A stretch of 64,000 nt of DNA from Streptomyces violaceusniger Tu 4113. Lineage in GTDB: Bacteria; Actinomycetota; Actinomycetes; Streptomycetales; Streptomycetaceae. This document shows positions 8,365-63,013 of the stretch, piece by piece (position 1 is the first letter of the stretch; every line of letters begins with the position of its first letter). The notes beneath the pieces are model-generated. The model saw only the letters and a program-made list of their open reading frames with translations, had not been told where the DNA came from and ran no database searches. Both the position numbers and the translations under genes were made by a program. Where the stretch lies: positions 5,890,001 through 5,954,000 of the forward strand of contig NC_015957.1 of the NCBI RefSeq assembly GCF_000147815.2, read 5' to 3'.

Positions 8365-9024
8365 GTGATCCATGTCCTGCTGGTGGACGACGACGCGATC
8401 GTACGGGCCGGGCTGCGCCTGATGCTGGGCGGCGCCCCGGACATCGAGGTCGTCGCGGAGGCCGCCGACGGGGCGGAGGTGGCGGCGCTGGTCGCCGCGC
8501 ACCGGCCCGATGTGGTGCTGATGGACATCCGGATGCCCGGCGTGGACGGGCTGACCGCCACCGCCGAGGTCCGGGCCCGGCCCGGCGCCCCCGAGGTGCT
8601 GGTGCTGACCACCTTCCACACCGACGCGCATGTGCTGCGGGCGCTGCGCGGCGGGGCGGCCGGGTTCCTCCTCAAGGACACCCCGCCACGGGACATCGTC
8701 GCGGCCATCCGGACGGTGGCCGCCGGGGATCCGGTGCTCTCCCCCGCCGTCACCCGCCGCCTCATCGAGCAGGTGGCGGGCGGCGGGCAGGAGGACCGGG
8801 CCACCGCCGCCCGGGCCCGGCTGGCGCTGCTGGGCGAGCGGGAGCGGGAGGTGGCCCGGGCGGTCGGGGGTGGCCGCTCCAATGCTGAGATCGCCCGGGG
8901 GCTGCATCTGGCGCTGCCGACGGTGAAGGCCCATGTGTCGCGCATCCTGACCCGGCTGGACCTCAACAACCGCGTCCAGATCGCCCTGCTGGTCCACGAC
9001 GCCGGCGAGTCGTACGGCGGCTGA
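8365..9024 (+). CDS. NarL/FixJ-type response regulator
   Basis: Response regulator of 219 aa starting at GTG with GGAGG about 10 nt upstream. The receiver domain has the acidic pair Asp8-Asp9, the phosphorylated Asp54 in VVLMDIRMPG and the LLKDT lysine loop. The C-terminal LuxR/GerE helix-turn-helix (REREVARAVGGGRSNAEIAR) binds DNA. It is the cognate partner of the kinase immediately upstream, 15 bp away and surely in one transcript. Target genes cannot be told; the divergent small membrane protein is a candidate. Confidence 0.93.
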   Translation: MIHVLLVDDDAIVRAGLRLMLGGAPDIEVVAEAADGAEVAALVAAHRPDVVLMDIRMPGVDGLTATAEVRARPGAPEVLVLTTFHTDAHVLRALRGGAAGFLLKDTPPRDIVAAIRTVAAGDPVLSPAVTRRLIEQVAGGGQEDRATAARARLALLGEREREVARAVGGGRSNAEIARGLHLALPTVKAHVSRILTRLDLNNRVQIALLVHDAGESYGG

Positions 9025-9080
9025 CCGGCGCTCCGCACGCCCCGGGGTCTTGGCGCTGGTGCGCGCGGTTCCGATGACCC

Positions 9081-55250: not shown

Positions 55251-55788
55251 CGACCGATCCTAGAGCGTGACGGTGGTGGGCCGCACCGGCGGGCACCACC
55301 CGGGCCCCGTCCCCTCGGAAGACGGCCGCCCCCTCGGGAGACGGGTGACGCGAAGATCGAAACACAACCGGAATAGAATACTCAATTCAGCTTGAGTACC
55401 AAGATTACATAAAGTCGAAAAGCTTTTTGGCGCGCATCCGTTGTGGCAGAGATGACGCATGCCTATAGTGCCGTGAGGTGTACATGCGACTCCCCGAGCG
55501 GATGCTGGACGTCACGCAACGGAGGAAGTGTAGTGCCGCTGATTTCCTGGGGGTCCGACCCTCTCGGACTCTTTCGAAGATGCAGATGAGCATGGTGCGC
55601 TGCTGATCCACAGCGCCCGTCAGTGACAAGATCCCGGCCCGGTGCCATCGCGGCCGGTACGCATCTCTCTCAGGAATCTCCGAAACGGGAGACCTTCACG
55701 TCATCGCGCCCTCGGGCGCCCATGAGTGGCCACGCTGTGCGCGTGGCTTGGAAAACTCCGACCGGTGGGCGAGTAGAGGTGACTGAGG
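55251..55788 (+). promoter_or_regulatory. AT-rich promoter and structured leader of the adenylation-enzyme operon
   Basis: About 540 bp before the 19-residue ORF. 55351-55440 is unusually AT-rich for this genome. TACTCAA-N6-TTGAGTA (55379-55398) is a perfect 7-bp inverted repeat, likely an operator. TTGTGG (55441-55446) and TATAGT (55464-55469) are 17 bp apart and form a good promoter. The leader from about 55476 holds hairpins: GTCCGA-N5-TCGGAC, TCTCC-N6-GGAGA, GCGCC-CTCG-GGCGC and GCCACGC-N5-GCGTGGC (55728-55746 region). Other short frames with ribosome binding sites exist at 55484-55606 and 55533-55589, but their codon use is poor. Confidence 0.55.
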
Positions 55789-55848
55789 ATGACAGCCGAG
55801 GACTTTCTGGCTTCCCGCGAGGCGGGCGAGGCCGCGACGAAGTGGTAA
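55789..55848 (+). CDS. 19-residue peptide ORF heading the adenylation-enzyme operon
   Basis: The frame encodes MTAEDFLASREAGEAATKW. It has a strong ribosome binding site, GAGGTGA, seven nt before the ATG, and 15 of 18 internal codons end in G or C, unlike the other short frames nearby. A terminator-like hairpin starts 25 bp after its stop, and the enzyme operon follows. It may be the leader of an attenuator, a very small precursor or scaffold peptide for the enzymes downstream, or a chance frame. It has no Cys, so thioether or thiazole chemistry is excluded; Ser, Thr, Lys and the C-terminal Trp are possible modification sites. Confidence 0.4.
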   Translation: MTAEDFLASREAGEAATKW

Positions 55849-55873
55849 TCGTCGCGACCGATAGGTAAGGGGC

Positions 55874-55901
55874 GCCGGGCGGATCTCCGTATTCGCCCGG
55901 C
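55874..55901 (+). terminator. attenuator-like hairpin before the operon genes
   Basis: GCCGGGCG and CGCCCGGC form an 8-bp perfect stem around a 12-nt loop, between the short peptide frame and the first larger gene. Partial termination here would make the peptide more abundant than the enzymes or allow attenuation. Confidence 0.5.
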
Positions 55902-55939
55902 ACCCTGTCGGGGCAGTGTGCACGAGGGTGGGTGGGACA

Positions 55940-56383
55940 ATGTTGCACGGACTCTTGAACGAGGAATCGATAAACTCCCTCCAGGGCCAGGAGTATCGCG
56001 ATCAGATCCAGCGGATAGAAAAGGCGCTGACCGATGCCGCCGACGGCGACCTCGCACTGAAGGAACTGTCCGAGTGGGCGGTCGGGCACCGGGACTGGAA
56101 CGTCAGGCGCCTCGCCGTGGAGACCCTCGCCGCCCGGTTCGTCGACGCGCCCGAGGCACGGGCGGCGATCGGCGATCGGTACGCGCATGTCTACGGCCAG
56201 AACGTGGTGCCCACCCTCTACGCCGGCCCGACCGGGCTGGAGGGCGAGATGACGTACAACCGCGCGGCCTTCACCCCGAGCGGCGCACAGCGCTACGTCG
56301 ACCGCCACTGCCGGAACCTGGAACACATGCTCAAGGACCCCCGGACGCGGATCGGGGAGGTGTGGCATGACAGCGGCCGCTGA
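55940..56383 (+). CDS. hypothetical protein, first gene of the adenylation-enzyme operon
   Basis: 147 aa, not recognised. It is largely helical: YRDQIQRIEKALTDAADGD and HRDWNVRRLAVETLAARF look like a HEAT-type or four-helix arrangement, followed by a Tyr-rich segment (RYAHVYGQNVVPTLYAG) and NRAAFTPSGAQRYVDRHCRN. No signal peptide or known catalytic motif is seen. The ATG was chosen; a GTG eight codons earlier is possible. Its end overlaps the start of the adenylation-enzyme gene by 17 bp, so the two are tightly coupled. A partner or chaperone of that enzyme is a reasonable guess only. Confidence 0.7.
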   Translation: MLHGLLNEESINSLQGQEYRDQIQRIEKALTDAADGDLALKELSEWAVGHRDWNVRRLAVETLAARFVDAPEARAAIGDRYAHVYGQNVVPTLYAGPTGLEGEMTYNRAAFTPSGAQRYVDRHCRNLEHMLKDPRTRIGEVWHDSGR

Positions 56384-58123
56384 CCCGCCCGGACCCGGCC
56401 GTCCGGCCCGCACCCACGACCTGGTGCGCGACGCCGCACTACGGTGGCCGGACCGGCCGGCGCTGATCGAGGGCGACACCGTCCTCAGCCACCGCCAACT
56501 CGACCTGCGTGCACAGGACTTGGCCCAAGCCCTGGTGGCGCGGGGCGCGGCCCGCGACATGACCATCGGGGTCGGCGCGCCACGCTCCGCCGAGCACGTG
56601 ATCGCCGCGCTCGCCGTGTGGAAGGCCGGTGGCGTCTATGTGCCACTGGCGACGGATCTGCCCCCGGCCCGGATCGCGGACATGCTGCGGATCGCCGGCG
56701 TGCGACTGACAGTGGGTCCGGGACTGACCATCAGCGAGATCGTGGATCCCCCCGTGGACCAGCCACTCGCCGGTCTGCCCCCGGCTCCGGAGGGCGAGGA
56801 CGGCGCCGTCGCCTGCGTCTACTTCACCTCGGGCTCGACCGGCAGTCCCAAGGCGGTGGCCCTCACGCACGCGGGCATCGTGAACGAGGCGCTGTGGTCC
56901 CATGACGCCTTCTCGATCCGCCCCGAGGACCGCAGCGGTTGGCTGGCCTACCCCGGATTCGCCATCTCACGGTGGGAGTTGTGGACTCCGCTGACCGCGG
57001 GCGCCGCCATCACCGTCTCCGAGGAGGGCGCGTCCGCGAGCCGGGGGCGCTCCGTGACTGGCTGCTGGACCAGGGGGTGACCTGGAGCATCGTGGTGACC
57101 GGGCTCGCGGAACGGCTCTTCGGCGTCCCCTGGCCGGCGGGCTGCCCGCTGCGCCTGCTGGTGACGGGCGGTGAGCAGCTACGGGTCTGGCCCCGCGGGC
57201 TGCCCTTCGAGGTCGTCAACTCCTACGGTGTCACCGAGGCGTCCAGCGTCCGCCTCGCGGCCCGGCTCGGCCCCTTTGCGGGTTCCACCGGACGTCTCCC
57301 CTCGGTGGGCCGTCCGATCCGCGGTACCCGGGTCCATGTGCTCGACGACGCACTGGCCCCGGTGCCCGACGGGGAGGTCGGGGAGCTGTTCATCGGCGGT
57401 GTCGGACTGGCCCGCGGCTACCTCGGCCACCCGGAACAGACCGCACGGCGCTTCGTACCCGATCCGTTCCACGGCGGCGGGCGGCGCCTGTACCGCACCG
57501 GTGATCTGGTGCGCGTCGACGAGAAGGGGCGGGTGGAATTCGTCCGACGGCTGAACGACGACCCGAAGGTCGGCGGTGTCCGCGTCGACCTCGCGGCTGT
57601 CGAGGCCGCGCTGCTCGCCTCGCCCGAGGTCACCGGGGCCGCGGCCGCGATCCGGGTCCGCGACGGGGAACGGCCACGGCTGGTGGGGTATCTGGTCGCG
57701 GACGACGACCGGCTGGCCCCCGATGAGGTGATCGACGCGGTCGCCCGGCGGCTGCCCCCTCAGATGGTGCCCGGCGTCCTGGTGCGCCTCACCTCCCTGC
57801 CGCTGCTGTCCAGCGGGAAGGTGGACCGCGGCCGGCTCCCGGAACCCACGGCGGACATCGTGTTCCGCGGCCGCCTGGCCACCGCGCGGGACGAGACCGA
57901 GCAGCAGGTCATCGACATCTTCCGGGAAGTCCTCGGCCGCGCGGACATCGGCGCCCACGACGACTTCTTCGGCTTGGGCGGGGACTCCATGGGCGTCGCC
58001 CGGGTGCGGCAGTCCCTCCTGGAACGACACGGCATCGACGTCCCCTACACCCTCATCTTCCGTCAGCGGACCCCACGCCGGATCTGTACGGCGGCGAGCG
58101 ACGGCGGGGAGGAGCCCCGGTGA
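56367..58123 (+). CDS. NRPS-like adenylation-carrier didomain enzyme, frameshifted in this sequence
   Basis: About 585 aa when both frames are joined. The first frame (to 57080) has A1-A3 (WKAGGVYVPLATDLPPARI, YFTSGSTGSPKAVALTH). The second has A5 NSYGVTEAS, A7 YRTGDLVR, an atypical A8 (NDDPKVGGVRVDLAAVE) and A10 SSGKVDRGRLP, then a carrier domain with the phosphopantetheine serine in FFGLGGDSMGVA. Around 57018-57045 one base appears lost: frame one ends at TGA 57078-57080, while VREPGALRDWLLDQG continues in the other frame. An assembly error or recent mutation fits, because both halves are intact. It activates an amino or aryl acid and holds it as a thioester. No condensation or release domain is attached. 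The aminotransferase start overlaps its stop (GTGA). Confidence 0.78.
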
Positions 58124-59340
58124 CCTTCACGGACGCGCCCAGCAGGCTTCCGGCTCTGGCGAGCCGTACGGACCAGCTCGCGGACTCCGCCGTCGCCGCC
58201 GTGCTCCGGCTGACCGACGGCCACGATGTGATCGCTCTGGCGGCCGGCAGCCCGGCGCCGGAGACCTACTGCCACCAGGAGTTCGCCGACGCCACCACCC
58301 GCCTGCTGAGCCAGGGCGGCCTGCCGCTGCGGTACGGCGACGCGAGCGGGCTGCCCGAGCTCCGGTCGTGGATCGCGGCCCGGGAGTCCGCCGAGCTCGG
58401 CCGTCCGGTCGACGCGGGGCAGGTGCTTGTCACCCATGGCTCGCAACAGGGCCTGGACCTGCTGTGCAAGGCGCTGCTCGATCCCGGGGACGTGGTCTTC
58501 GTGGACCGGCCCAGCTATGTGGGAGCGCTGCAGGTCTTCCGTCTCTTCCAGGCCCGGGTGGTGGACATATCCCTGGGGTCGGACGAGGGTCTCGACCGGC
58601 TCGAAGCGGCGCTGTCGGTGGAGGAACGAGCCAAAATCATCTATGTGGTGCCCACCTTCGCCAATCCGACGGGCGCCACCCTGGACACCGCGCACCGGCG
58701 CCGTCTGGCCGCCCTCGCCCAGCGGTACGGCTGCGTCCTCGTCGAGGACGACCCCTACCGGGATCTCGGCTACGACACCGTCGCGCCCCGGCCGGCCGCC
58801 GTGGCCTCCGCCGTGGCCGGCGCCGTGCGGATGGGTACCTTCTCCAAGGTGCTCTTCCCCGCGGCGCGCCTGGGCCATCTGGTCGTCCCACCGTTTCTCA
58901 CCGATGTGCTGATGAAGTTCAAACAGGCGGCCGACCTGGGGAATTCGCTTCTGATGCAGCAGGTGGTGCATGAGCTCGTCAAGGAGCCCGGCTTTCTGGC
59001 CACCCGGCTGGAGCTCGCCCGTCATCTCTATCGCAGGCGCCGCGACGCACTGGTGAGCGCCTTGGCCGGCTCCTTCGAGGGGGCTTTGGAGTTCGAGGTG
59101 CCCCACGGTGGCTTCTTCGTCTGGGCGAGGCTTCCCGGGGGCGCCGACGCCACCGAACTGCTGGCCGCCGCGGTCGAGGAAGGTGTCTCCTTCGTACCGG
59201 GGACCGATTTCTACGCGACCGGGCCCGACCCGTCCACCCTGCGGCTGTCCTTCTCCTGCACTCGTGCCGAGGACATCGTCGAGGGCGTCGCCCGGCTGGA
59301 ACGGGCGTGGCGGACCCTGTGCAAGGGACCCCGCTCATGA
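58120..59340 (+). CDS. PLP-dependent fold-I aminotransferase (LysN/2-aminoadipate type)
   Basis: 406 aa. LRYGDASGLPELRSWIA and VTHGSQQGLDLLCKALLDPGD, the PTFANPTGATL stretch and the Schiff-base lysine in GTFSKVLFPAARLG identify the family that includes LysN and the enzyme half of MocR regulators; no DNA-binding domain is attached. It should make or consume an amino acid, perhaps the building block activated by the upstream adenylation enzyme, whose stop its GTG overlaps. The substrate cannot be read from sequence. Confidence 0.9.
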   Translation: MTFTDAPSRLPALASRTDQLADSAVAAVLRLTDGHDVIALAAGSPAPETYCHQEFADATTRLLSQGGLPLRYGDASGLPELRSWIAARESAELGRPVDAGQVLVTHGSQQGLDLLCKALLDPGDVVFVDRPSYVGALQVFRLFQARVVDISLGSDEGLDRLEAALSVEERAKIIYVVPTFANPTGATLDTAHRRRLAALAQRYGCVLVEDDPYRDLGYDTVAPRPAAVASAVAGAVRMGTFSKVLFPAARLGHLVVPPFLTDVLMKFKQAADLGNSLLMQQVVHELVKEPGFLATRLELARHLYRRRRDALVSALAGSFEGALEFEVPHGGFFVWARLPGGADATELLAAAVEEGVSFVPGTDFYATGPDPSTLRLSFSCTRAEDIVEGVARLERAWRTLCKGPRS

Positions 59341-59828
59341 AGCTCACCAGGGACGCCGACGGAACCTTCCCGGGCCTCGACAAGGCCCCGTTCGACGTGG
59401 ACGCGTTCCTGGCCCGGCCCCTGGTGGCCCGGCTTGCCACCGAGGGCCCACGGGTGCGGCCCGTGTGGTTTCTGTGGGAGGACCACGCCTTCTGGGTGCT
59501 CACGGGCCCCTGGTCCCGACTGGAGGAGCGGCTGACGCGCGCCCCGGTCTTCGAACTCGTGGTGGACTCGTGCGACCTGGCGACCGGCACCGTTCACCAG
59601 GTCATCGCCCGTGGCCACGGCCGGGTGGTGACCTTCGACACGGGCCGGGGCCGCCGCAAGCTCACCCGGTACCTGGGCGAGCGGGAGGAGCTGTGGGACG
59701 CCCGGTTCAGCCTGCGCGGCGACCCGTCCGCCCGGGGCACCCGCTGGGCCCTGCTGGTGCCCGACACCCTGTGGATCGCGGACCTGTCCTTCCGCCCGCC
59801 CCGCGAAGCGCGAACGGACCGCCCATGA
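59337..59828 (+). CDS. PPOX-type (pyridoxamine 5'-phosphate oxidase-like) flavoprotein
   Basis: 163 aa. FLARPLVARLATEGPRVRPVWFLWED is the split-barrel opening of the PPOX/flavin or F420 reductase superfamily, and HGRVVTFDTGRGRRKLTRYL follows in the second half. Family members oxidise or reduce small substrates with FMN or F420, so it may dehydrogenate or reduce the carrier-bound or free product of the operon. It overlaps both neighbours by 4 bp (ATGA each side). Confidence 0.8.
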   Translation: MKLTRDADGTFPGLDKAPFDVDAFLARPLVARLATEGPRVRPVWFLWEDHAFWVLTGPWSRLEERLTRAPVFELVVDSCDLATGTVHQVIARGHGRVVTFDTGRGRRKLTRYLGEREELWDARFSLRGDPSARGTRWALLVPDTLWIADLSFRPPREARTDRP

Positions 59829-61078
59829 GCACGGACACCACGGACGAGACGGCGGGCGGGGCCGCCGGCCACCGGTCCTACCGCCAGGTGCTGACGGGGA
59901 ACCCGCGCCTGGCCGTACTGCTCGCCGGTTATGTGATCTCCAGCGTGGGCGATGGCATCCTGCTGATCGCCCTGCCGCTGCTGGCCATACGCCACCACGG
60001 GCAGCTCTCCGCTCCCGTGGCGGTCGGCCTGGTGATGACCGCACCGTATGTGCTGTCGACCGTGCTCGCCCTCAGCATCGGCCTGGGACGGCTGCGACTG
60101 CCCACCCGGGCCGTGGTCATCACCGACAGCGCGCTGCGCACCGTTCTGTTCACGGTGGTGGGCCTCGCCGCCATGGCCGACCGGATCGACATCCGGTTCC
60201 TGGTGGTGGCGCTGCTCCTCGGGTCCGTCCTGCATCAGACGGCGTCCAGCAGCCGGCGCCTCGTCGCCACCGGTATGGCCGGGAAGGGCGAGCTCTTCAC
60301 CGTCAACGGACTGCTGGGCTTCGCCAACAGCCTGGCGCTCTACGTCGTAGGGCCGGCGGTCGGTGGCGCGGTCACGGTCGCGTTCGGAGCGGACGTGGCC
60401 GTCCTCCTCGAAGCGCTCAGCTTCCTCTTGCTGTTCGGGGCCGTCGCGCTCGTCGTGCCGCCACAGCCGAGAGCGCCCCGGGCGGAGCGGTCGACGGAGT
60501 CCGGGTGGCGGATCCTGCGGCTGCGTCCCGTGGCCGCCCGCCTGTTCTTCGTGGTCTTCTTCTTCAATCTGTCCTATATGCCGGTGGAAGTGGCGCTTCC
60601 CGTACTGGTCAACGGAGATCTCCACGGGGACGGAAACACACTGGGCATCATCTGGACCGCCTTCGGCGCCGGGGCGCTGATCGGCGGGGCGCTCACCGGT
60701 TTCCTGCGGAAACTGCACCAGCAGGCCGTCCTGGTGGCGGTCATCGCGCTGTGGGGCGGTTCGGTGGTACTTCTCGCCCTGGCCCCCTCCGGGCCGGTCG
60801 CGATGTGCGCCTTCGCCCTGGGCGGACTCATCTACGCCCCGTTCACACCCATCGCCTACACCTTTGTGCAGTCGGAGCTCCCGCCCCATGAGCAGCAGCC
60901 GGTGATCACGCTCTGGACCACCGGCTCGACGCTGGCGGCCCCGATCGGCCTGCCGCTCAGCGGCCCGCTGGTGAGCGCGCTCGGTGCGCGCGGCGGACTG
61001 CTGCTCTCCGCGGCATTCACCCTCGTTCTCGTTCCGTTCGCCGCCAAGGGCCTGCTGGGCCCGCGCCGAGTCGCATAG
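59825..61078 (+). CDS. MFS exporter
   Basis: 417 aa with 12 predicted helices. LLAGYVISSVGDGILLIALPLLA is helix 1, and the sequence resembles the enterobactin-exporter/MFS_3 group that exports small metabolites. It starts inside the stop of the flavoprotein gene. Its place in a coupled biosynthetic operon suggests it exports the product and provides self-protection (inference). Confidence 0.88.
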   Translation: MSTDTTDETAGGAAGHRSYRQVLTGNPRLAVLLAGYVISSVGDGILLIALPLLAIRHHGQLSAPVAVGLVMTAPYVLSTVLALSIGLGRLRLPTRAVVITDSALRTVLFTVVGLAAMADRIDIRFLVVALLLGSVLHQTASSSRRLVATGMAGKGELFTVNGLLGFANSLALYVVGPAVGGAVTVAFGADVAVLLEALSFLLLFGAVALVVPPQPRAPRAERSTESGWRILRLRPVAARLFFVVFFFNLSYMPVEVALPVLVNGDLHGDGNTLGIIWTAFGAGALIGGALTGFLRKLHQQAVLVAVIALWGGSVVLLALAPSGPVAMCAFALGGLIYAPFTPIAYTFVQSELPPHEQQPVITLWTTGSTLAAPIGLPLSGPLVSALGARGGLLLSAAFTLVLVPFAAKGLLGPRRVA

Positions 61079-61094
61079 CCAGAGGAGTGCGCAC

Positions 61095-61838
61095 GTGCAG
61101 GGATACGAATCGTCGACCTACGGCGACCACATGACCGACCACGACGCCATCGGCTGGCCGGCCGCGAAGGACGAGGACGCGGCGGTGGGGTTCCTCGTGG
61201 ACGTGGCCAAGCCCGGCCATGCGCTGGAGCTCGGGGTGGGCACCGGGCGGGTCGCCCTGCCGCTTGCGGAGCGGGGGGTGCGCGTCACCGGCATCGACGC
61301 CTCCCCCGTCATGCTCCGGCAGATGGCCGACAAGCCGGGCAGCGCACAGGTGCGGGCCGTCCAGGGCGACTTCGCGGAGGCCGCCGTCGACGGGACCTTC
61401 GACCTCGTCTACGCCGTCCAGCACACGTTCTTCCTGCTGCGCGACCAGGAGACCCAGATCCGCTGCTTCCAGAACGTGGCCGCGCGGCTGGCCCCCGGTG
61501 GCGCCTTCGTCCTCCAGGTGTTCGTCCCCGATCCGCACCGCCTGATCCAGCCGCAGGCCAGCGACGCCCTTCAGGTGGCACTCGACCAGGTGGTCCTGCG
61601 GGTCTCGAAGTTCGACCGGGTGACGCAGACGGTCAATCGGCAGTACGTCGCCATCACCGAGGGCGGGACGAAGCTGTACCCCATGGTGTTCCGCTACGCA
61701 TGGCCCACCGAGCTGGACCTGATGGCACGGCTGGCGGGCCTCCGGCTGGAAGGGCGCTGGGACGGCTGGTCGCGGGCGCCCTTCACCGCGGAGGGCGGGT
61801 ATGTCGTGGTCTACCGGAAGCCCGCCGAGGCGGTGTGA
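61095..61838 (+). CDS. class I SAM-dependent methyltransferase
   Basis: 247 aa. Motif I is ALELGVGTGRVALPLAE, with GIDASPVML, VQGDFAE and LAPGGAFVLQVF as following motifs. GTG was chosen for AGGAG 7 nt upstream, 16 bp after the exporter stop. It resembles small-molecule methyltransferases and is probably the last tailoring step of the operon. Its stop is 3 bp from the end of the convergent dehydrogenase gene. Confidence 0.9.
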   Translation: MQGYESSTYGDHMTDHDAIGWPAAKDEDAAVGFLVDVAKPGHALELGVGTGRVALPLAERGVRVTGIDASPVMLRQMADKPGSAQVRAVQGDFAEAAVDGTFDLVYAVQHTFFLLRDQETQIRCFQNVAARLAPGGAFVLQVFVPDPHRLIQPQASDALQVALDQVVLRVSKFDRVTQTVNRQYVAITEGGTKLYPMVFRYAWPTELDLMARLAGLRLEGRWDGWSRAPFTAEGGYVVVYRKPAEAV

Positions 61839-61841
61839 GGC

Positions 61842-62864
61842 CTACGCCACGGTGTCGCCGACCCGGACGGGTCCGTTGGTGGTGACCGACTGGATGGCGG
61901 CGAGGGCGACGGACAGGGCGGCGCGGGCGTCCTGTCCGGTGACGGAGGGGGCACGTCCGGTGCGCACGCACTCGGCGAAGTCGGCGAGTTCGGCGACGTA
62001 GGCGTCGTGGAAGAGGTCCTGGTCGTAGGCCACGCATGCGGCGGCGATGCCGTCCGGGCCGTAGGCGGTCAGATGGCTGCGGCGGATGTCGCCCATGGTG
62101 AGCATGCCGGCCGAGCCGAAGACCTCACCGCGGACGTCGTATCCGTACACCGCCTGGAAGTTCGCCTCGGCGGTGGCGAGGGCGCCGTTGTCGAAGCGGA
62201 TGGTGACCACGGCGGTGTCGAGCAGTCCGCGGTCCTTGAAGTCGGGGCGGACGAGGGCGTCGGCGAAGGCGAAGACCTCGACGGGCGCGGCGCCGGGGTT
62301 GAGGTAGCGCAGGGTGTCGAAGTCGTGGATGAGGGTCTCCAGGAAGATGGTCCACGGCGGGATGCGGCCCGGGTCGGCCAGCTCGGGGTCGCGGGTGAGC
62401 GAACGCAGTAGCTGCGGGGTGCCGATGGCGCCCGCTCGGATCTTCTCGTGGGCGGTGCGGAAACCGGTGTCGTAGCGGCGGTTGAAGCCCACCTGGAGGG
62501 GGACGCCCGCGTGGGCGGCGGCCGCGATGGCACGGTCCGCCTCATCGAGGGTGACGGCCATGGGCTTCTCGCAGTAGACGGCCTTGCCCGCCCGGGCCGC
62601 GGCCTCGACCAGCCCGGCGTGGGTGCGGGCCGGGGTGGCGATGACCACCGCCTCGATCCCGGGGTCGGCGAGCAGCTCGTCCATCTCGGTGTACGCCGTG
62701 GTGCCGCCCAGGCGGTCGCCGAGCTCCTGGGCGGCGCCCGGGGCCGGGTCGGCGATGGCCGCGAGACGGGCGCCGGGGAGGCGGCGGGCGAGGGTCGCGG
62801 CGTGGAAGGAGCCCATGCGGCCGGCGCCGATGAGACCGACGGGGAGAGGGTGTCGCGTGGTCAT
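61842..62864 (-). CDS. Gfo/Idh/MocA dehydrogenase, inositol 2-dehydrogenase-like
   Basis: 340 aa. The Rossmann motif is PVGLIGAGRMGSFHAATLA, EKP occurs in AVYCEKPMAVTLDEAD, and the substrate domain holds GFNRRYDTGF and the ETLIHDFDTLRYL catalytic His-Asp region typical of myo-inositol 2-dehydrogenases (IolG). It oxidises an inositol or a related polyol with NAD. GGAG lies 7 nt before the ATG. It follows the isomerase gene on the same strand, with a minisatellite in the 200-bp gap. Three LacI-type operators upstream of the isomerase probably control both. Confidence 0.88.
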   Translation of the reverse strand: MTTRHPLPVGLIGAGRMGSFHAATLARRLPGARLAAIADPAPGAAQELGDRLGGTTAYTEMDELLADPGIEAVVIATPARTHAGLVEAAARAGKAVYCEKPMAVTLDEADRAIAAAAHAGVPLQVGFNRRYDTGFRTAHEKIRAGAIGTPQLLRSLTRDPELADPGRIPPWTIFLETLIHDFDTLRYLNPGAAPVEVFAFADALVRPDFKDRGLLDTAVVTIRFDNGALATAEANFQAVYGYDVRGEVFGSAGMLTMGDIRRSHLTAYGPDGIAAACVAYDQDLFHDAYVAELADFAECVRTGRAPSVTGQDARAALSVALAAIQSVTTNGPVRVGDTVA

Positions 62865-62880
62865 GCGGATGCTCCGTAGA

Positions 62881-63013
62881 TTCCGTGAGTCCGTTGTTCC
62901 GTGGGTTCGGTTGTTCCGTGGGTTCCGTTGTTCCGTGGGTTCCGTTGTTCCGTTGTTCCGTGGGTTCCGTAGTTCCGTAGGTTCCGTAGTTCCGTGGGTT
63001 CCGTAGTTCCGTA
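62881..63013. repeat. minisatellite of 17-bp (9+8) units between two operon genes
   Basis: About 14 copies of TTCCGT occur in alternating 9- and 8-bp steps, e.g. GTTCCGTGGGTTCCGTT. On the minus strand this reads CGGAACCCA / CGGAACAA units running up to the dehydrogenase ribosome binding site. Copies differ by single bases (AGTTCCGTA variants in the distal half). Such arrays vary by slippage. There are no unique spacers, so it is not CRISPR. Confidence 0.9.

Follow-up and report, generated by a model that had tools for sequence, protein, structure and literature searches.

This report concerns the window, a stretch of 64,000 nucleotides from Streptomyces violaceusniger Tu 4113 (contig NC_015957.1, positions 5,890,001 to 5,954,000; the assembly of 11.1 Mb in three contigs is listed as 100% complete), and within it a small biosynthetic operon on the forward strand at positions 55251 to 61838. 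An earlier note, made from the letters alone, had proposed that this operon makes a modified amino acid or small amide. A comparison with related loci suggests a different picture: judged by these alignments, the operon is the remnant of a conserved operon, left by a deletion and a frameshift, and its most diagnostic element is a 19-residue frame in front of the larger genes. As far as sequence comparison tells, this frame is a conserved 19-codon gene, which is tied across otherwise different operons to genes for a protein with a HEAT and a SUMF1-type domain (HEAT-SUMF1). We think it likely that the peptide serves as a precursor or scaffold resembling those of ribosomally synthesized and post-translationally modified peptides (RiPPs), and that HEAT-SUMF1 modifies it at a Lys-Trp pair. 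The pathway is probably dead in this strain, because HEAT-SUMF1, the key modifying enzyme, and the condensation domain are gone.

The 147-residue frame and the missing segment

The first large frame of the operon encodes a protein of 147 residues (p147), which had been said to match no family. When p147 was searched against 392 genomes of the genus, 5 of them gave matches, the own genome included. In three relatives, the match fell into two pieces: residues 1-79/80 corresponded to the start of a 473-aa frame, and residues 77/78-147 to the end of a 541- to 558-aa frame located about 4.1 kb off; in the fourth relative, the head was matched and the tail was not. By these split matches, p147 is a chimera of two proteins, fused by an in-frame deletion. 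Its first half (55940-56170) comprises residues 1-77 of the 448 residues of HEAT-SUMF1 and is 92-95% identical to the head found in the related loci L010-L012. Its second half (residues 78-147; 56171-56383) comprises the last ~70 of the 464 residues of a nonribosomal peptide synthetase (NRPS) condensation protein, with 90-99% identity to L010-L012 and L015; the corresponding Pfam match to the tail of the Condensation domain is weak (11.9 bits, below the cut-off). A new protein family was considered for p147 and rejected, as its halves map to two separate genes in the relatives. A search of about 5.8 billion proteins retrieved p147 only (P0001; 1 protein of 61 candidates).

Between the two halves, the relatives carry the rest of HEAT-SUMF1 (448 aa; Pfam FGE-sulfatase 1e-46, HEAT_2 3.4e-08) and genes for a class II aldolase/adducin-like protein (2e-41), a luciferase-like monooxygenase (LLM; 1.4e-56), and the condensation-domain protein (2.7e-39). 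The deletion took the rest of HEAT-SUMF1, the aldolase-like and LLM genes, and most of the condensation-domain gene. Measured against L010 only, the window is short by 4,086 bp, a length divisible by three, and the two sides of the junction (56170) share 1 nt of microhomology; in L011, L012, and L015 the left-hand match to the window stops at the same point as in L010. No second HEAT-SUMF1 gene was found anywhere in the own genome.

The second lesion affects the adenylation-carrier (A-T) gene, which had been taken for a single frame. The window has two frames instead, one at 56367-57080 with the first part of the adenylation domain (AMP-binding 2e-40), ended early by a frameshift near 57.03 kb, and one at 57050-58123 (start approximate), which holds in another frame the remainder of this domain and the carrier domain with its GGDS motif (AMP-binding, AMP-binding_C, PP-binding; 94-96% identity to L010-L012). 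In the relatives the gene is uninterrupted, and L010 contains a single 585-aa frame. The NRPS module of the window is thus incomplete: the condensation domain is reduced to its tail, the adenylation domain is frameshifted, and the carrier motif is kept. The absence of a condensation domain had been noted before, together with the conclusion that the product must be released by another route. The relatives carry a complete gene for this domain here, of which the window keeps only the tail within p147, so that the question of release arises from the deletion.

The intact operon, its peptide and its variants

The intact operon, which we call type A, was found in eight distinct relatives, namely the genomes G164 and G383, S. 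niphimycinicus, S. endocoffeicus, S. sp. CoH27, S. olindensis, S. pinistramenti, and Rhodococcus rhodnii, i.e. seven Streptomyces and one Rhodococcus. (L012 and L014 are one genome, as are L013 and L019; each was counted once.) A scan of one genome per species (84,980 species) returned 6 loci, two of them from genomes already found. The gene order is peptide, HEAT-SUMF1, aldolase II-like, LLM monooxygenase, condensation and A-T, aminotransferase, PPOX, major facilitator superfamily (MFS), methyltransferase; the condensation and A-T genes occur in either order, and in R. rhodnii they form one 1096-aa frame. In the two most distant operons, the identity of the proteins to the L010 or window versions ranges from ~27% (condensation domain) to 81%. 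LacI and ABC-permease flanks are common to the window and four of the eight relatives, and three of these four also possess the downstream oxidoreductase gene, where the available sequence extends that far. Scattering of the genes, which the earlier note had named as an argument against its operon, did not occur, as they are co-conserved in 8/8 type-A relatives. Likewise, the adenylation-carrier, aminotransferase, PPOX, MFS, and methyltransferase genes had been recognised correctly in kind; what did not hold is that they constitute the pathway, as four genes (HEAT-SUMF1, aldolase II, LLM, and condensation domain) are wholly or nearly lost and the A-T gene is broken.

The peptide gene (55789-55848; MTAEDFLASREAGEAATKW) is intact in the window and is indeed preceded by a ribosome binding site, AGAGGTGA in the window and GGAGGTGA in close relatives. 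The 19-codon frame stands at the same position in all eight type-A relatives, with its stop codon 75-91 nt upstream of the HEAT-SUMF1 start. Four of these have MTAEDFLASREAGEAATKW, two have VTAEDFLASREAGESATKW, S. pinistramenti has MTAEDFLASRESGEAATKW, and R. rhodnii has MSNEEFIGSREAGEVATKW; 13 to 19 of the 19 residues of the window peptide are identical in the relatives, though the identity of some neighbouring proteins drops to 27-54%. For the final four residues, the window and all eight relatives use the very same codons.

Similar peptides of the form F[LIM]x[ST]R[DE]...KW(EA/EG) are encoded just upstream of 22 of the 23 distinct HEAT-SUMF1 genes that were examined, and occur in four operon types; examples are MSEKDFMGTRDNEQDTTKW, MSDRDFIETRDAKQECSKW, and MSDETFLGSRDGGDETTAKWEA. 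This count refers to genes with both domains, which were matched at E<=1e-90 or 1e-100 or found in the species-wide scan, and omits the window (a fragment) and L060 (no HEAT domain). The peptides have a conserved N-terminal motif, a variable middle, and a conserved KW end; L059 has a 37-aa form, counted from its ATG, which ends with DFLKTRDSKKQIVKW (reverse-complement coordinates 8960-9073). A six-frame scan with this pattern of 25 loci (539,634 nt), i.e. the 23 HEAT-SUMF1 loci, the window, and L060, gave 23 matches, all at the leader position, and no peptide in L060, which has the SUMF1 domain only. In 5.4 Mb of second-order Markov sequence there were 0 matches; the pattern was written from these same peptides, and the control thus speaks to specificity only. 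A DNA pattern for the peptide tail matched only the own genome among 394 genomes of the class; being derived from type A, it would not recognise types B-D. A short gene-encoded peptide beside tailoring enzymes, as expected for a RiPP, is therefore present, its role as a precursor being putative.

HEAT-SUMF1 itself was found in 13 of 392 genus genomes (E<=1e-100), 1 of 394 class genomes (E<=1e-90), and 9 of 394 family genomes, with some genomes shared between scans. Type B (L039, L042, L045, L058) consists of HEAT-SUMF1, PPOX, MFS, methyltransferase, P450, and ATP-grasp genes; here the peptide ends with KWEA or KWEG, and the C-terminal domain of the ATP-grasp protein is that of an L-amino-acid ligase. 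The P450 and ATP-grasp assignments come from Pfam in L045, and the other type-B loci were grouped by similarity. Type C (L038, L040, L041, L043, L046, L048, L055, L057) contains genes for a metallo-beta-lactamase fold protein, an esterase, asparagine synthase, aldehyde dehydrogenase, a threonine-aldolase-like lyase, PPOX, and ATP-grasp, as assigned by Pfam in L041 and by similarity elsewhere; in some loci, individual genes are absent or could not be resolved, and for L046, whose contig ends early, no PPOX gene is listed. The scleric acid cluster was considered as the source of the type-C product and rejected, as the available part of PMC13307308 describes other genes. Type D (L044, L059) combines PPOX with a 315-aa protein. 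Thus, the peptide, HEAT-SUMF1, and PPOX are constant in all four types, and the ligation genes vary. For this comparison, genes were predicted with a home-made caller, and some frames are wrong, e.g. the L039 methyltransferase.

In a tree of HEAT-SUMF1, the types group mostly by lineage; L060 is placed within type A, on a long and uncertain branch, and L056 lies outside C and D. The latter locus has only part of the type-C gene set, and its HEAT-SUMF1 gene adjoins an MFS-like frame. One comparison gave an in-frame TGA in this gene; a later translation of the aligned part was free of stops.

Directly after the peptide gene, the window contains a GC-rich hairpin with no U tract (55869-55906), similar to a partial terminator or an attenuator. 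As judged by folding, 20 of 22 loci (the window included; L012 and L056 omitted) have a GC-rich stem of at least 11 bp behind the stop codon of the peptide gene, with z from -1.2 to -6.6; the exceptions are L044 (z -2.8), where the stem is shorter, and L059 (z 0.1). The stem sequences are unrelated between operon types. A search of 55251-61900 against Rfam returned nothing at E<=0.5. The hairpin can be read equally well as an attenuator or as a partial terminator following a precursor gene. An inverted repeat (55834-55855, GCGACGA ... TCGTCGC) extends over the KW codons and the stop codon of the peptide gene; it is similar in several type-A relatives and absent in L018.

The remaining genes of the window encode a fold-type I aminotransferase (58120-59340) in which the SK motif for pyridoxal phosphate is kept, a PPOX-type split-barrel protein (59337-59828; PNPOx_N 3.1e-06, 28.0 bits and thus just below the cut-off of 28.1), a predicted MFS exporter with profile matches (59825-61078), and a class I S-adenosylmethionine-dependent methyltransferase (61095-61838; Methyltransf_25 1.1e-16). 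The tight coupling reported before was confirmed: p147 (55940-56383) overlaps the A-T start at 56367 by 17 bp, overlaps of 4 bp occur at A-T/aminotransferase, aminotransferase/PPOX, and PPOX/MFS, and a 16-bp gap precedes the methyltransferase. The single promoter postulated there was not recovered, as a scan for sigma-70-type promoters, which does not cover other types, gave 0 hits in 55251-56000 (mean of shuffles 0.1). A further short frame in the leader (55533-55589; 18 aa, VPLISWGSDPLGLFRRCR) has GGAGGA in front. Downstream of the operon, a tandem array with a 17/59-bp unit (TTCCGTGGGTTCCGTTG) occupies 62873-63012, between oxidoreductase-like and sugar-isomerase-like frames.

Proposed pathway and competing explanations

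We propose for the peptide a ribosomal origin and a role as precursor or scaffold; its N-terminal motif F[LIM]x[ST]R[DE] would be the recognition part, with the HEAT domain as the likely binding platform. The SUMF1-fold domain, which is probably metal-dependent, would oxidise or rearrange the C-terminal Lys-Trp with the assistance of the PPOX protein. In type A, the product, released or still attached, would be further oxidised by the LLM and aldolase-like enzymes, transaminated, and methylated; the condensation/A-T pair would add an activated acyl unit by an amide link, and the MFS protein would export the final product. Ligation modules may be this NRPS pair, an ATP-grasp L-amino-acid ligase, or ATP-grasp together with asparagine-synthetase-type enzymes. 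On balance, we lean towards regarding these loci as an undescribed ribosomal class of Actinomycetes, defined by Lys-Trp precursors of ~19 (up to 37) residues, a HEAT-SUMF1 metalloenzyme, a PPOX partner, and interchangeable ligation modules, with the window as the fossil of one lineage. No SUMF1/FGE-like enzyme with a mini-peptide was described in the literature searched, which covers few subscription papers.

The acyl unit merits a closer look. In ordinary adenylation domains, Asp235 holds the alpha-amino group of the substrate (PMC11355689). An alanine occupies this position in the six domains examined of the eight relatives and in the window fragment (GFAIS or GFAIT, aligned with FDGS of LgrA), so that the residue characteristic of alpha-amino-acid adenylation is lacking. 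Therefore, the domain probably activates a keto, aryl, or otherwise modified acid rather than an alpha-amino acid. The alanine also casts doubt on the suggestion of the earlier note that a modified amino acid is loaded on the carrier. In the HHxxxDG motif, the condensation domains of L010, L016, L017, L013, and L018 all retain the second His and the Asp; three of these five have Ala or Ser at its first position and Ala at its last. Additional condensation-domain-like frames lie near the type-A operons of S. pinistramenti (L013, 6599-8467) and R. rhodnii (L018, 20167-21147), where the assembly line may be longer.

In HEAT-SUMF1, Pfam places HEAT_2 at residues 41-110 and FGE-sulfatase at 176-442. 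In an alignment to 6muj/2q17, Ser415 and Cys419, both invariant in 57/57 aligned sequences, occupy the positions of the copper-binding cysteines of the formylglycine-generating enzyme (FGE). The AlphaFold model has low confidence (pLDDT <50) over residues 391-414 and 426-428, and no metal site was assigned for this reason.

Several observations weigh against the interpretation proposed here. The cysteine pair expected for an FGE is only half kept. The DinB domain, which carries the iron-binding histidines of the sulfoxide synthases EgtB and OvoA, is absent. The reaction can therefore not be read from the sequence. L056 has a HEAT-SUMF1 gene with no recognisable peptide within 20 kb, its precursor being possibly lost or diverged; the loci are mutually related, so that the counts are not independent; and among 120 homologues and the own P0001 there is no fusion of peptide and HEAT-SUMF1. 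The hairpins of the window, L011, and L015 barely beat those of shuffled sequences (z -1.2 to -1.7). The ratio of nonsynonymous to synonymous polymorphism (pN/pS) of the remaining window genes is 0.08-0.79 against four relatives and 0.08-0.66 among the relatives; this lack of a clear excess of protein changes suggests that the loss is recent or that the genes still function. Finally, our observations concern the anatomy of these loci and its conservation, from which we infer every chemical step.

Alternatively, the peptide could be a regulatory leader, which acts by attenuation or nascent-chain arrest via the hairpin. Its size and position suit a leader peptide, the hairpin follows directly, and the second, small inverted repeat over the KW and stop codons occurs in the window and several type-A loci. 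However, an attenuator offers no use for the EA or EG after KW in type B or for the 37-aa form in L059, there is a single Trp codon, the N-terminal motif and not only the C-terminal end is conserved, and the peptide tracks HEAT-SUMF1 across four operon types rather than one operon; nor was there an Rfam match. We thus regard a leader as unlikely.

Other explanations concern the state of the operon. It is quite improbable that deletion and frameshift are sequencing or assembly errors in an otherwise intact operon: the lesions are known from the assembled sequence alone, a one-base frameshift can arise from sequencing, and selection on the remaining genes looks normal, but the 1-nt microhomology without a repeat at the junction makes a repeat collapse unlikely, and the missing HEAT-SUMF1 part was not found elsewhere in the genome, whose assembly is listed as 100% complete. 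That the operon as it stands is complete and active for a modified amino acid or amide is very improbable; although its frames overlap or are closely spaced throughout, the carrier, A10, and aminotransferase motifs are intact, and pN/pS is not clearly elevated, four of the ten genes of the relatives' operon are wholly or nearly missing and A-T is frameshifted. It is scarcely conceivable that p147 has been domesticated as a fusion protein with a function of its own. Its reading frame continues across the fusion and overlaps that of the adenylation domain, yet 77 HEAT residues and a condensation tail include neither active site, and the protein search found it in one genome only. A remnant operon with a putative precursor peptide therefore remains our preferred interpretation.

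Implications and relation to known systems

If the peptide is indeed a precursor, SUMF1-fold enzymes would acquire a role as the hallmark of a RiPP-like class, and NRPS and ATP-grasp ligation would be supplied with mini-peptides of ribosomal origin. Gene callers easily overlook a gene of 60 bp, and the clusters would then be typed by their tailoring enzymes alone; the peptide pattern combined with HEAT-SUMF1 is a ready mining rule. The intact type-A operons in several Streptomyces make the question directly testable. The case of p147 is also a warning: what looks like an orphan protein of no known family may turn out to be the scar of a deletion.

PQQ and mycofactocin are RiPPs with very short precursors. 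In the biarylitides, a tiny precursor gene, which escapes annotation and is even smaller than the one described here, lies beside the modifying enzyme in the same manner (PMC13417212). Short-precursor RiPPs use a P450 or radical-SAM partner, whereas HEAT-SUMF1 takes this place here, accompanied by NRPS condensation/A-T proteins (type A) or ATP-grasp ligases (types B and C). In pearlins (ammosamide AmmA; BhaC1), tailoring converts a C-terminal Trp on a peptide scaffold (PMC9850906, PMC12715798); here, in contrast, the Trp is ribosomally encoded in a peptide of ~19 residues, and Pfam scans of the type-A operon genes (window and L010) detected no PEARL (LanB-like) ligase. The same scans detected no RiPP recognition element (PqqD-like); no search specific to this element was made. 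By their logic, pearlins and biarylitides are the nearest precedents.

Daptides likewise have an aminotransferase and a methyltransferase next to the peptide. The best NCBIfam match of the window methyltransferase is daptide_MTase, with 73.6 bits well below the cut-off of 175, and no daptide dehydrogenase was recognised among the operon genes scanned. Compared with the FGE/SUMF1 family (EgtB, PvdO, CalU17, ToxD), HEAT-SUMF1 has a HEAT N-terminus instead of DinB, a Ser at the first copper cysteine position, and a mini-peptide gene upstream. Judged from these features, membership in FGE, EgtB, daptides, and pearlins fails in each case on at least one of those tested. An FGE domain beside a RiPP precursor domain seems to have a precedent in the bufferins, where a few Buf1|Cytochrom_C|FGE-sulfatase fusions are known (PMC12452194); there, an MNIO carries out the modification and the precursor domain is large and fused, whereas the peptide described here is separate and consists of ~19 residues.

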